This document shows, one piece after another, positions 2,982-34,873 of a stretch of DNA of 64,000 nucleotides. The notes under the pieces were generated by a model that did no database searches, was not told the DNA's origin, and saw only the letters and a list, made by a program, of their open reading frames with translations. The stretch is taken from NCBI GenBank assembly GCA_902826695.1, contig CADEFU010000006.1:1-64000 (forward strand), in the 5' to 3' direction. Numbering within the stretch: position 1 is the stretch's first letter; the number at the start of each line of letters is the position of its first letter. The position numbers and the translations under genes are program-made. Source of the stretch: an uncultured Alphaproteobacteria bacterium. Lineage in GTDB: Bacteria > Pseudomonadota > Alphaproteobacteria > Micropepsales > Micropepsaceae.

Positions 2982-3112
2982 GCGGTCCCTGCCCTAAGTT
3001 CAAGATTCGACTGGTGTGATAGCGAAAAGGCCGCGCCACTTGAAGCCCGGTGACGCCCAGGCTTTTCGTTGACAGGCAGGCGGCCCCGCGGATATGCATC
3101 GGCCCCTTCCGT

Positions 3113-3197
3113 GCCCAGATGGCGGAATTGGTAGACGCGCTAGTTTCAGGTACTAGTATCGCGAGATGTGGAGGTTCGAGTCCTCTTCTGGGCACCA
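3113..3197 (+). tRNA. tRNA-Leu (anticodon CAG)
   Basis: The acceptor stem GCCCAGA pairs with TCTGGGC, followed by discriminator A and an encoded CCA at 3195-3197. The D-loop contains GGTAGACGC, the anticodon loop TTTCAGG reads CTG codons, and a long variable arm of leucine type precedes the T-arm GAGGTTCGAGTCCTC. Total length is 85 nt. The gene stands alone between two minus-strand protein genes. Confidence 0.97.
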
Positions 3198-17391: not shown

Positions 17392-18207
17392 TCATTCCTC
17401 CGTGAACGGACGAACCGTGTGTGCGTGGTTGAGCGGCCCGTGGCCCTGCCCCAATCCCGGTGCCGTCTCGATCGCGCGGCGCACATAGTGCCTCGCGCGG
17501 GTGATCGAATCGACGGCGCTTAGGTGTTGAGCGAATCCTGTTGCGACGGCGGATGCAAGCGTGCAGCCCGTGCCATGGGTGTGGCGCGTTGCGATGCGCT
17601 TGTTGTGCCACTCATGCGTGCCGTCGGGACCTGCGTAGAGGTCGACAATTTCGTTGCCCGCAAGATGACCACCTTTGAGCAGCACTGCCTTGGGGCCCAA
17701 ATCGAGCAATTGTTTCAGTGCGTCGCGCATCGCTTCGGGCGTTGCAATTCTCCGACCGGTCAGCGCCTCGGCTTCCGGCAGGTTCGGCGTGATCAAGTGT
17801 GCGCGCGGCAGAACATGGCGCTTCAGCGCTGCAACCGCGTCGGATTCGAGGAGGGCTGCGCCGCCTTTGGCGACCATAACCGGGTCGACGATCAGGGGCG
17901 CTCGGTTTGCCTGCAACGCTGCCATCACGGTTTCGATCACCGCGGCGGTCGCGAGCATGCCGGTCTTGATCGCATCTGCGCCGATGTCGCCGAGCACGGT
18001 CTCGATTTGCGCGCGCACGATGTCGAGCGGGATGGAGTGAATAGCGCTCACGCCCAGCGTGTTCTGCACGGTGACCGCGGTGACGGCCGTTGCTGCGTAG
18101 CCGCCGAGGGCGGTTACTGTCTTTATGTCGGCCTGAATTCCAGCGCCGCCGCCGGAGTCAGACCCAGCGACGATCAGAACGCGGCCGTGCATGCGTGTGG
18201 GCTGCAT
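17392..18207 (-). CDS. thiD: Hydroxymethylpyrimidine/phosphomethylpyrimidine kinase
   Basis: ThiD phosphorylates HMP twice to HMP-PP, the pyrimidine half of thiamine. The ribokinase-type fold shows GSDSGGGAGIQADIKT at the N-terminus, VVDPVM-like IVDPVMVAKGG in the middle, and the anion-hole/catalytic motif HTHGTGCTLASAVA near the end. Length is 271 residues. The start could be ATG 18207 or the ATG five codons on (MHGRVLIV). It lies far from thiE (60.4 kb) on the opposite strand. Confidence 0.95.
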   Translation of the reverse strand: MQPTRMHGRVLIVAGSDSGGGAGIQADIKTVTALGGYAATAVTAVTVQNTLGVSAIHSIPLDIVRAQIETVLGDIGADAIKTGMLATAAVIETVMAALQANRAPLIVDPVMVAKGGAALLESDAVAALKRHVLPRAHLITPNLPEAEALTGRRIATPEAMRDALKQLLDLGPKAVLLKGGHLAGNEIVDLYAGPDGTHEWHNKRIATRHTHGTGCTLASAVATGFAQHLSAVDSITRARHYVRRAIETAPGLGQGHGPLNHAHTVRPFTEE

Positions 18208-18285
18208 GCAGTCAATCTAGTCGCGCGCCAGCGCGTTGGCGAGTTCGTGTTTGGCGCACAGGATGATACGAAGGAACAAGAGAGG

Positions 18286-18367
18286 TTCGCACAATGAAAC
18301 AATGCAACAATGAGGCGCCCTCGGCGCGCGGGAACGCGCCCATCGTTTCATTGTTTCATTGTGTGAA
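18286..18367. repeat. Palindromic intergenic repeat, copy 1
   Basis: This 82-bp element lies between thiD and the end of glmM. The left arm 18286-18312 and right arm 18341-18367 are inverted 27-mers matching at 24 positions, with core CACAATGAAACAATG. The centre is GC-rich (GGCGCCC...GGGCGC-like). Over 32 bases starting at 18290 it matches copy 2 at 34717 in 30 positions, so it is a dispersed family rather than a private terminator. It could act as a REP-like or MITE-like element and also end glmM transcription. Confidence 0.75.
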
Positions 18368-18372
18368 CCCTC

Positions 18373-19725
18373 TTACGCTACGCAGGCTTTTTCGAGGACT
18401 TTCACGATGTCGCCGACGACGGTCGTGACGAGTTTTTCGTCGTCGCCTTCGGCCATCACGCGGATCAAGGGCTCGGTGCCGGATTTGCGGATAAGGAGGC
18501 GTCCTTTGCCGACGAGGCGGGCCTCACCGTCCTTGATGGCGGTGGCGACGTCTTGGTTCTCGAGCGGCTTTTGGCCGGCGCGGAAGCGGACGTTCTTGAG
18601 GAGTTGCGGCAGTGGGTCGAAAAGGTGGGCAGCTTCGCTTGCCTTCTGGCCGGTTTGTGCGATCACGGCGAGAACTTGGAGGGCGGCGATCAGGCCGTCG
18701 CCCGTGGTCGAGAAGTCGTTCAGGACGACGTGGCCGGATTGTTCGCCGCCGATGTTGAAGCCCTTGTCGCGCATGTGTTCGACGACGTAGCGGTCGCCGA
18801 CCGCCGTGCGTTCGAGCGAGAGGCCCATCGCGCGGACGTAGCGCTCGAGGGCGAGGTTCGACATGACAGTCGCGACGATACCACCGCCTTTGAGCGTGCC
18901 GGCCTTGCTCCATGAGCGGGCGATCAGCGCGAGGATCTGATCACCGTCGATGATCTGGCCCTTCTCGTCTGCCAAGACGACGCGGTCGGCGTCGCCGTCG
19001 AGGGCGATGCCTAGGTCGGCGCGGCTTTCCTTTACTTTGGCGCACATCGCGTCAGGCGAGGTTGAGCCGCACTTGTTGTTGATGTTGAATCCGTTTGGCT
19101 CAATGCCGATCTTGATGACTTCAGCGCCCAGTTCCCAGAGCACTTCCGGTGCCACGCGGTAGGCGGCGCCGTTCGCACAGTCGAGTACGATGCGCAAGCC
19201 GTCGAGGCGCAGGTGAGCGGGGAACGTACGTTTGGCGAATTCGATGTAGCGGGCCTGTGCATCGTCGATGCGTTTGGCGCGGCCCAGATCGGCAGGCGCG
19301 GCCAGATGGTCGGCGAGGCCGTTGTCCATCATCCGCTCGATTTCGATCTCGACATCGTCGGAGAGTTTGTATCCGTCGGGACCGAACAGCTTGATGCCGT
19401 TGTCTTCGAACGCATTGTGCGAGGCAGAGATCATCACGCCCAAATCGGCGCGCAGCGAGCGCGTCAGCATTGCAACGGCGGGCGTGGGCAGCGGGCCGAA
19501 CTGGATCGTATCCATGCCGACGGAGGTGAAGCCCGCGACAAGCGCGGTCTCGATCATGTAGCCGGAGAGGCGCGTATCCTTGCCGATGACGACGCGGTGG
19601 CGGTGCTCGCCGCGCGTGAAATAGCGGCCCGCGGCCATGCCAACGCGCAGCGCGGTTTCGGCGGTCATCGGCGCGGCGTTCGCTTTGCCGCGAATCCCGT
19701 CGGTTCCGAAGTACTTCCGGCTCAT
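18373..19725 (-). CDS. glmM: Phosphoglucosamine mutase
   Basis: GlmM converts glucosamine-6-phosphate to glucosamine-1-phosphate for UDP-GlcNAc, hence for peptidoglycan and lipid A. The four-domain phosphohexomutase fold shows the catalytic phosphoserine loop [16 protein letters not shown] (Ser about residue 103), the metal-binding loop DGDADRVV (about 242-249), and the C-terminal phosphate-binding loop [15 protein letters not shown]. Length is 450 residues. It is the last gene of the ftsH-folP-glmM run, 73 bp downstream of the DHPS gene. Confidence 0.97.
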
Positions 19726-34032: not shown

Positions 34033-34656
34033 TTACGCCGCGCTCGACAAGGCGCGCAGGCCTTCGCGGATCATGGCTTGCAGCGGGAGCTCCTTGCCTT
34101 CGCGAGCGACGACGGTTGCGATCGCTTGGCTGGCTTGGGCTTGGCTGTAGCCGAGGTTCACCAGTGCCGAGACGGCTTCGGCAGCGACGCCGGCGGGGCG
34201 GTTGAGCGCGACGACGGCGCCCTCCCCTTTCGCAATGTGGAGCGGGGCCGAGATGCTCGCCGCTTTGTCTTTCAGTTCGGCGGTGATGCGGGCGGCGAGT
34301 TTGGGGCCGACGCCTTGGGCGCGGCCGACCGCGGCTTTGTCTTCGAATGCTACAGCGCGGGCGAGGTCTGAGACATTGAGCGTGCTCAGAATCGAAAGCG
34401 CCACTTTGGCGCCGACGCCTTGCACGGTTTGCATGAGACGGAACCATTCGCGCTCTTCACTCGTCGTAAAGCCGAACAGTTTGATCGCGTCTTCGCGCAT
34501 TTGCGTTTCGACGAACAGCGTCGCGCGTTGGCCCGGTTGGGGAAGGTTCGACAGCACGCGTGCGGCGCAGTGCACGACGTAACCGACGCCGCCCACGTCA
34601 ATGACTGCGAAGTCGGTGCCGATTTCGTCGATGATACCGGTGAGTTTGCCGATCAT
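34033..34656 (-). CDS. ruvA: Holliday junction branch migration protein RuvA
   Basis: RuvA binds the four-way junction and positions RuvB rings. It has an N-terminal OB fold ([26 protein letters not shown]), two helix-hairpin-helix motifs ([13 protein letters not shown] and [16 protein letters not shown]) and a C-terminal RuvB-binding domain ([18 protein letters not shown]). Length is 207 residues. It is separated from ruvC by the palindromic repeat element. Confidence 0.97.
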
Positions 34657-34678
34657 GCGTTTGTGCCTTGAAGAGGGT

Positions 34679-34867
34679 TCACGCCAAGCCGCCGAGCCGC
34701 CAAGAAGATTTTCTCACACAATGAAACAATGGAACAATGGGGCGCCCTTCTTGCGCCGCAGGCGCTATTTCGAACGTTCGAAGGGCGCTTCGCGCCGAAG
34801 GAAGACCTCTCATTGTTCCATTGTTTCATTGTGTGAGGCGCTCTTTCTTCTTCGCGGCTTGGCGTGA
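34679..34867. repeat. Palindromic intergenic repeat, copy 2, nested inverted arms
   Basis: This lies between ruvA and ruvC. Outer arms TCACGCCAAGCCGC (34679-34692) and its complement (34854-34867) are perfect 14-mers. Inner arms 34713-34739 and 34811-34837 are perfect inverted 27-mers with core CACAATGAAACAATG. The centre is GC-rich with further self-complementarity (CGAACGTTCG at its middle). Over 32 bases from 34717 it matches copy 1 (18290) at 30 positions. No coding capacity is seen. It is consistent with a non-autonomous mobile or REP-like element. Confidence 0.75.
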
Positions 34868-34873
34868 GGTTTT

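Follow-up and report, generated by a model that had tools for sequence, protein, structure and literature searches.

Two intergenic palindromes of an uncultured alphaproteobacterium as probable copies of a genus-wide family of mobile elements with exchangeable octamer arms

Introduction

Are the two long intergenic palindromes of this alphaproteobacterial contig copies of one repeat family and, if so, is that family mobile? Most of what is known of bacterial interspersed palindromes concerns short REPs that have a RAYT. The two palindromes lie in the window, the whole 64,000-nt stretch analyzed here, and are longer and more layered. Taken in aggregate, the comparative data suggest, with a probability of roughly 0.6, that the two loci belong to a family of non-autonomous mobile palindromes found across the genus. 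The best reading of these elements is REPIN/MITE-like, with exchangeable and internally homogenized octamer arms.

Results

Structure and position of the two palindromes

A preliminary description of the window had placed the palindromes at 18286-18367 (copy 1) and 34679-34867 (copy 2), and both were recovered there. The 30 identical bases of 32 in their left halves are found at 18289-18320 and 34717-34748. This match is real, but it consists mostly of a period-8 octamer array and is no unique 32-bp core. In copy 2, the inner arms of 27 bp are perfect (34713-34739 / 34811-34837) and an outer pair spans 14 bp (TCACGCCAAGCCGC / GCGGCTTGGCGTGA), as described; copy 1 is also a strong inverted repeat, with arms of 29 nt that are 90% complementary. 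The period-8 tandem repeats read ACAATGNA in the inner arms and CGCCAAGN in the outer arms of copy 2. Terminal inverted repeats, as looked for in MITEs, are therefore present in the elements. Both copies are intergenic, with the exception that the right end of copy 1 overlaps the glmM stop codon by 2 nt. Copy 2 lies within the ruv genes, between ruvC and ruvA, with ruvB adjoining ruvA (Table 1).

Copies 1 and 2 are the two longest inverted repeats listed for the window. Among ungapped hairpins they also score highest, both in the window and across a 445-kb sample of which it is part. In this sample, five hairpins score 16 or more; after shuffling in 3-nt blocks, the number is zero. The predicted DNA folding of the two copies lies 8 and 11 sd below shuffles, and none of 200 shuffles equals it. 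At the curated threshold, no Rfam family matched over the window elements or over four element loci.

Table 1. Coordinates of the two palindromes, their parts and other features in the window
Feature	Position	Strand
Copy 2 left outer arm: TTCAC, three CGCCAAG-type octamers, start of purine linker	34678..34707	+
Copy 2 left inner arm: CTCAC, three ACAATG octamers	34713..34739	+
Copy 2 core: spacer, H1, middle stem, H2, spacer; family orientation reads on -	34740..34810	-
Copy 2 hairpin H2, GCGCC-TGC-GGCGC on - strand	34753..34765	-
Copy 2 middle stem TTCGAACGTTCGAA; conservation across the family is weak (64.8% of cells paired)	34769..34782	
Copy 2 hairpin H1, GGCGC-GAA-GCGCC on - strand	34784..34796	-
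Copy 2 right inner arm, exact inverse of 34713-34739	34811..34837	-
Copy 2 right outer arm	34846..34868	-
Copy 1 short-form element, arms 18284-18312 / 18341-18369; right end overlaps glmM stop (18373-18375)	18278..18374	
Copy 1 central GC hairpin GGCGCG-CGGGAA-CGCGCC	18323..18340	
ruvA, downstream neighbor of copy 2	34033..34656	-
ruvC, upstream neighbor of copy 2; palindrome starts 5 nt past the ruvC stop codon	34874..35398	-
glmM, ends at copy 1	18373..19725	-
thiD-type HMP-P kinase, other neighbor of copy 1	17392..18207	-
6S RNA, above the Rfam gathering score	39199..39357	-
tRNA	3113..3194	+

Copy number and distribution

The inner-arm motif CAATGNAACAATG has 37 matches at 15 loci in the 4.3-Mb source genome (G000), with both arms at 12 loci and a single arm at 3; the reversed pattern has none. 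The two window copies are thus not the only ones, and the proposed multicopy interspersed family stands. A sister species (G002) contains 47 matches at 23 loci. Among 61 genomes scanned with this motif, 18 have any match, and only G000 and G002 are loaded; the other 59 have 0-2 each. The outer-arm pattern TCACGCCAAGNCGCC, allowing up to two mismatches, was set aside as not discriminating in the source genome (123 matches versus 78 reversed). Spread by phage or plasmid was also considered: plasmids and phages searched with one G002 element, and viral contigs searched with two arm patterns, gave no match.

These counts bear on the simplest explanation, that the palindromes are chance products or tandem-repeat artefacts of a GC-rich genome. 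Slippage can expand period-8 tandem repeats, and ACAATG octamer arrays that have no inverted partner occur in other phyla. Neither accounts for 15 loci with a silent reversed control, for a shared core at fixed spacing or for a folding energy that shuffled sequence does not reach. Copy number, together with the empty orthologous sites described below, refutes this explanation, and the probability left to it is negligible.

Conserved hairpins between variable spacers

The two-armed inner elements that were extracted (35) comprise 29 long copies (108-136 nt), 5 short copies (73-78 nt, copy 1 included) and one of 301 nt. Read in order, the long-form core starts with a variable spacer and hairpin H1 (GGCGC-GAA-GCGCC), continues through a weak 4-bp stem to hairpin H2 (GCGCGC..GCGCGC) and closes with a second variable spacer. 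This segmentation was made by regular expression and is visibly wrong in a few rows. Among 28 of the 29 long copies (L121, with an unrecognized H2, was dropped), mean identity is 0.93/0.89 for the arms, 0.93 for H1 and 0.79 for H2. The arm values are biased upwards because the copies were found by their arm motif; H1 was not used for finding. The spacers of the same copies reach 0.45-0.51, versus 0.36-0.42 when shuffled. As they differ strongly between copies, the family did not arise in a recent burst from one master. The earlier suggestion of free variation in the center does not hold, since the long form, represented by copy 2, carries conserved hairpins and copy 1 represents the short form.

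The H1 13-mer extends the family beyond the two loaded genomes, with 16 copies in G000, 31 in G002, 21 in G007, 22 in G010 and 13 in G005 (reversed control 0-4). The covariation score of the folded structure and its number of pair types exceed all 500 shuffles. Pairs changed on both sides number 7 of 37, which 167 of 500 shuffles equal, and most pairs never vary. With so few double-sided changes, and with the middle stem paired in 64.8% of cells, covariation was not accepted as proof of RNA function.

The element is therefore modular: two conserved GC hairpins and a weak stem are wrapped by one or two nested layers of inverted arms. Each arm consists of about TCAC followed by two to four tandem octamers.

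Two further arrangements were seen beside the regular forms. The short form lies within another palindrome (CCCGGCCACCCAGGG..) in L102 (G002) and in L087 (G000), where the composite is similar. Between the arms of the 301-bp variant (L100:1518-1818, G002:C10), which was inspected in six reading frames, lie ~180-220 additional bp and a short open frame.

One core within exchangeable, nested arms

In G007, which has a single ACAATG match, H1 lies within ACGAAGCA, CGCGAAGN, CACCAAGN and CACGAAGN arms. Arms were surveyed at 56 H1 loci: all 16 sites of G000; 19 loci of G007 (21 sites); 11 of G010 (22 sites); and 10 of G002 (31 sites). Octamer arms are found on both sides at 36 loci, on one side at 15 and on neither at 5. 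At 3000 random positions, the corresponding numbers are 4, 188 and 2808.

The two arms of an element also resemble one another. In the 26 elements of this set that have strict 8-nt dimers on both sides, the best left-right dimer identity is 0.97 within elements versus 0.77 between elements, a baseline that the octamer regular expression inflates. At L370, ACAAAG occurs in all three units of one arm and ACGAAG in the other arm, as if the units of one arm had changed together. Viewed by eye, L353, L351, L371, L377, L380, L363 and L370 are nested, reading inwards from an outer octamer layer through a purine linker and an inner layer of another octamer type to the core. One core is thus combined with different octamer types, and both arms of an element tend to the same type.

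The same combination could arise if the core alone were mobile. Here, a REP-dimer-like H1-stem-H2 unit would insert into the tips of older octamer palindromes, and the arms would form a separate, wider class. Consistent with this proposal, one core is found with many arm types, a coreless palindrome exists in G000 (L092) and no H1 is seen in Geobacteraceae palindromes whose octamer is nearly identical. There is also a precedent in the REP dimers that lie inside long palindromes in A. variabilis and H. neapolitanus (PMC3733652). However, H1 differs from H2, so that the core is no doublet of one REP, and neither a GTAG nor a CGTC tag was seen beside the stems. The length of the inner element is nearly fixed, and L092 is the single coreless palindrome noticed, with none in the 445-kb sample under strict two-unit arms. 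Movement of the core alone is accordingly improbable, while retaining some weight.

Presence and absence at orthologous sites

A RuvC match was obtained in 9 of the 11 genus genomes, and the ruvC-ruvA junction is visible in 7. An element of ~200 nt occupies this junction in G000 and G002. In the genomes that have no element here, the two genes overlap (G009, G003 and G001) or lie 11 nt apart (G007 and G005). Copy 1 is missing at the orthologous site in G007, G009 and G002. Other G000 copies are likewise missing: L010 and L004 in G007; L007 in G002 and G005; and L024 in G002. Close relatives thus differ in whether an orthologous site carries a copy.

G000 and G002 have common flanks at only two loci, and both are empty in G007. 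As G007 is closer to G000 than G002 is (RuvC identity of 91% versus 84%), losses as well as gains must have occurred. The spacer identities of the two shared pairs rank 18th and 99th of 378 pairs, and common descent of the shared copies is therefore not proven. One of these loci has an outer layer in G002 that is absent from G000. In eight flank alignments, no target-site duplication or exact junction was readable, the intergenic flanks being too diverged. The MITE/REP-like reading of the preliminary description gains from the copy number and from presence/absence between species, but no transposase with matching ends was seen.

Gene ends and their re-occupation

The gene context of 38 elements is co-directional in 23, convergent in 14 and divergent in 1, against a window background of 42, 9 and 10 (convergent versus divergent, p=0.001). 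Gene calls came from a simple hexamer model, and a called gene overlaps the element in 2 of the 38 (the first element of L100, and L111). Nearly all copies lie 3' of a gene.

Four G000 sites, part of 11 obtained with a joined-flank query, were viewed across relatives. At each of the four, one or more relatives have, judged by eye, a different palindrome in that position. In G010, an H1/H2 element with CACCACAAAG arms stands behind glmM, and the L010 and L007 sites hold an octamer palindrome and a nested element, respectively. Other palindromes occupy the L012 and L024 sites in G005 and the L010 site in G002. An ordinary terminator-like hairpin with a T-rich tail stands in G007 at the L010 site, where G000 has its element. 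The remaining relatives have unrelated sequence at the four sites, or the sites are empty or unresolvable. At the examined sites, which palindrome occupies a given gene end thus varies from species to species. L282, L305 and L307 contain further palindromic repeats (CCCTCATCCGTC.., CCCCTCCACCGTCGC.. and GGTCGGCC..), which occupy these gene ends in G005 and G002.

This distribution raises the alternative that the elements are 3'-end structures useful to the host, such as terminators, mRNA stabilizers or nucleoid-protein sites, that are selected and spread by recombination and are not self-mobile. The strong 3'-end bias with avoidance of divergent promoters is consistent with such a role, as are the conservation of arms and hairpins while spacers drift, the terminator-like hairpin of G007 and the other palindromes at the same gene ends. 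A nucleoid-protein role has also been proposed for Geobacter repeats, as IHF/HU sites (PMC2700814). However, several orthologous sites in relatives have no palindrome of any kind. The overlap or near contact of ruvC and ruvA in five relatives implies that a terminator there would break the operon, and a terminator scan around copy 2 gives 1 site versus 0.6 in shuffles. REPs have the same 3'-end bias (PMC3733652). A host function as the primary explanation is quite unlikely.

A candidate mobilizing enzyme

The preliminary description had called for a search for a REP-associated transposase. Y1 transposase genes of RAYT size, 25 matches in all, were found in 10 of 11 genus genomes, with three RAYT proteins in G000, and genomes with more H1 copies tend to have more of these genes (Spearman 0.88, n=11 genomes). 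Correlations of 0.65 with genome size and 0.53 with completeness were also obtained, and either factor, or general transposon load, may underlie the RAYT correlation. The flanks of 21 of the 25 matches, some of which end at contig ends, were scanned for TCAC-type arms and GGCGCNNNGCGCC only. In 20 of the 21, the fetched flanks contain no TCAC-type arm or H1-like hairpin; in the remaining one, an octamer arm lies ~1.1 kb away and none is nearer. The search thus returned RAYT genes in the genus, but none of the 21 has an element within 1 kb. No autonomous copy, and no transposase gene between matching arms, was seen among the 35 two-armed copies from the motif search.

RAYT was rejected as a proven mobilizer, as several RAYT genes, among 10 judged for such motifs, have their own inverted ends (GGGGACACGTAACAA, AGTGCACTGTCACCGAA) and no octamer arms nearby. 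An HUH/Y1 enzyme of RAYT type is nevertheless the best candidate, at somewhat less than even odds. RAYT-type genes with inverted motifs of their own were observed in L263, L264, L265 and L267 (G002) and at L448:5143-5191 (G000:C1). G000 also contains a lone palindrome with GGGACACGTAACAAATT arms.

Discussion

A possible mode of movement

If the elements are mobile palindromes, the process may involve: recognition of the folded single strand of the element by a trans-acting transposase; movement of the element into lagging-strand or hairpin DNA; and its persistence where insertion is tolerated, behind stop codons. Movement of a folded single strand would fit the conserved hairpins, variable spacers, many sites and gene-end bias. 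Slippage among the octamers during replication, together with template switching from one arm to the other, could keep the arm units alike. Nested layers might form by insertion of one palindrome into the tip of a second.

Relation to known repeats

MITEs have terminal inverted repeats, no coding capacity and presence/absence at orthologous sites. The elements described here share the terminal inverted repeats and the presence/absence at orthologous sites and have no evident coding capacity. They differ from MITEs in that their arms are tandem octamers of varying type. No target duplication was read, and they have no known cognate transposase.

Comparison with REPINs and REP doublets (PMC3116915) shows two GC hairpins in a fixed pair, a variable spacer, an intergenic position and conservation as a unit in both. 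RAYT genes are likewise present, in 10 of 11 genus genomes. In contrast to REPINs, in which one REP occurs as two inverted copies, H1 and H2 differ in sequence; they are enclosed by long octamer arms, and no REP-RAYT adjacency was found. The GTAG/CGTC REPs (PMC3733652) are also palindromic and lie 3' of genes, and some are inserted within longer palindromes. The CGTC families are mostly alphaproteobacterial and, on that account, apparently have no dedicated transposase (PMC3733652). At 73-136 bp (one 301), the inner elements are larger than these REPs of 20-40 bp (PMC3733652), and in 22 aligned copies viewed by eye no GTAG/CGTC tag directly adjoins H1 or H2.

The claim that the family is apparently undescribed holds in part. 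The closest published relative is the class 1 sites of Geobacter metallireducens. These comprise 48 sequences of four tandem octanucleotides GTTGCTYN, paired on opposite strands at variable distance (PMC2700814), and their authors read them there not as mobile palindromes but as IHF/HU sites. The kind of architecture is shared, but the ACAATG arms of the window differ. The class 1 octamer is the reverse complement of NRAGCAAC, and the ACGAAGCA arms of G007 and G010, which contain GAAGCAAC, fit the GTTGCTYN consensus (PMC2700814); the ACAATG and CGCCAAG arms of the window do not. This agreement between the genus and Geobacter was noticed after the fact, from the octamer sequences, and is suggestive. 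A search of the literature by repeat letters found no relevant paper, and the combination of a common core, exchangeable octamer arms and nested layers was not found described in the literature searched (the Geobacter supplementary figures lay outside the comparison).

In a few Geobacteraceae genomes, ACACGGAGCAACGGAGCAACGGAG-type arms occur, and 6 or more of the 10 loci retrieved show an inverted partner; some genomes have ACACGGAGCAACGGAG.. arms with the partner roughly 110-280 bp off. No H1/H2 core and no second octamer layer were seen at the Geobacteraceae loci. A three-unit Geobacter pattern gave no match in 7 genomes or in 48 Geobacteraceae, among which G. metallireducens was not recognized. 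The two-unit pattern was discarded, as its matches in 24 of the 48 (at most 5 each) are near control for most. The idea that the ACGRAG arm type is widespread among Pseudomonadota was rejected as well (2 of 398 genomes with one match each, the chance level).

A wider class of layered palindromes

A broader proposal is that the octamer-phased arms are an exchangeable recognition module of an unrecognized, cross-phylum class of mobile palindromes. In such a class, all units of the two arms would change type together, onion-like layers would surround a lineage-specific core and one conserved octamer-reading enzyme would move the elements to gene ends. This proposal is speculative, and its odds are low. 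ACAC-GRAG-CAAC-GRAG.. arms are shared by this alphaproteobacterial genus with some Geobacteraceae, and those reading TCACGCAAAGN.. occur in Bacteroidota as well.

A larger, layered type of palindrome, with a constant center and arms that change as a block, would allow two questions to be asked: how inverted repeat arrays undergo concerted evolution; and by which enzyme a period of eight bases is read. Gene ends re-taken by different palindromes offer a natural test between tolerated parasites and useful 3' ends. The Geobacter octamer arms, published as predicted regulator sites (PMC2700814), may need re-reading.

ACAATG tandem arrays occur in at least 118 contigs of many phyla, a number that is not evidence of kinship because it has no scrambled-octamer comparison. 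Tandem ACAATGNN octamer arrays were observed in L177, L207, L172 and L205 (Geomesophilobacter, Spirochaetaceae and others), with no inverted partner array reported within 200 bp. The Bacteroidota contigs L189, L194, L175 and L138 differ from the genus in that no H1/H2 core was seen and their ACAATG arms are oppositely directed. L189 contains two palindromes whose arms read TCACGCAAAGTCGC.. and which have an A-rich linker. At L194:3600-3720 (Saprospiraceae), an inverted AACAATGN array lies beside a CGCAGAGN array, also given as CGCAGAGGCGCGGAGACGCAGAG; these are the same two octamer kinds as in the genus, in another phylum.
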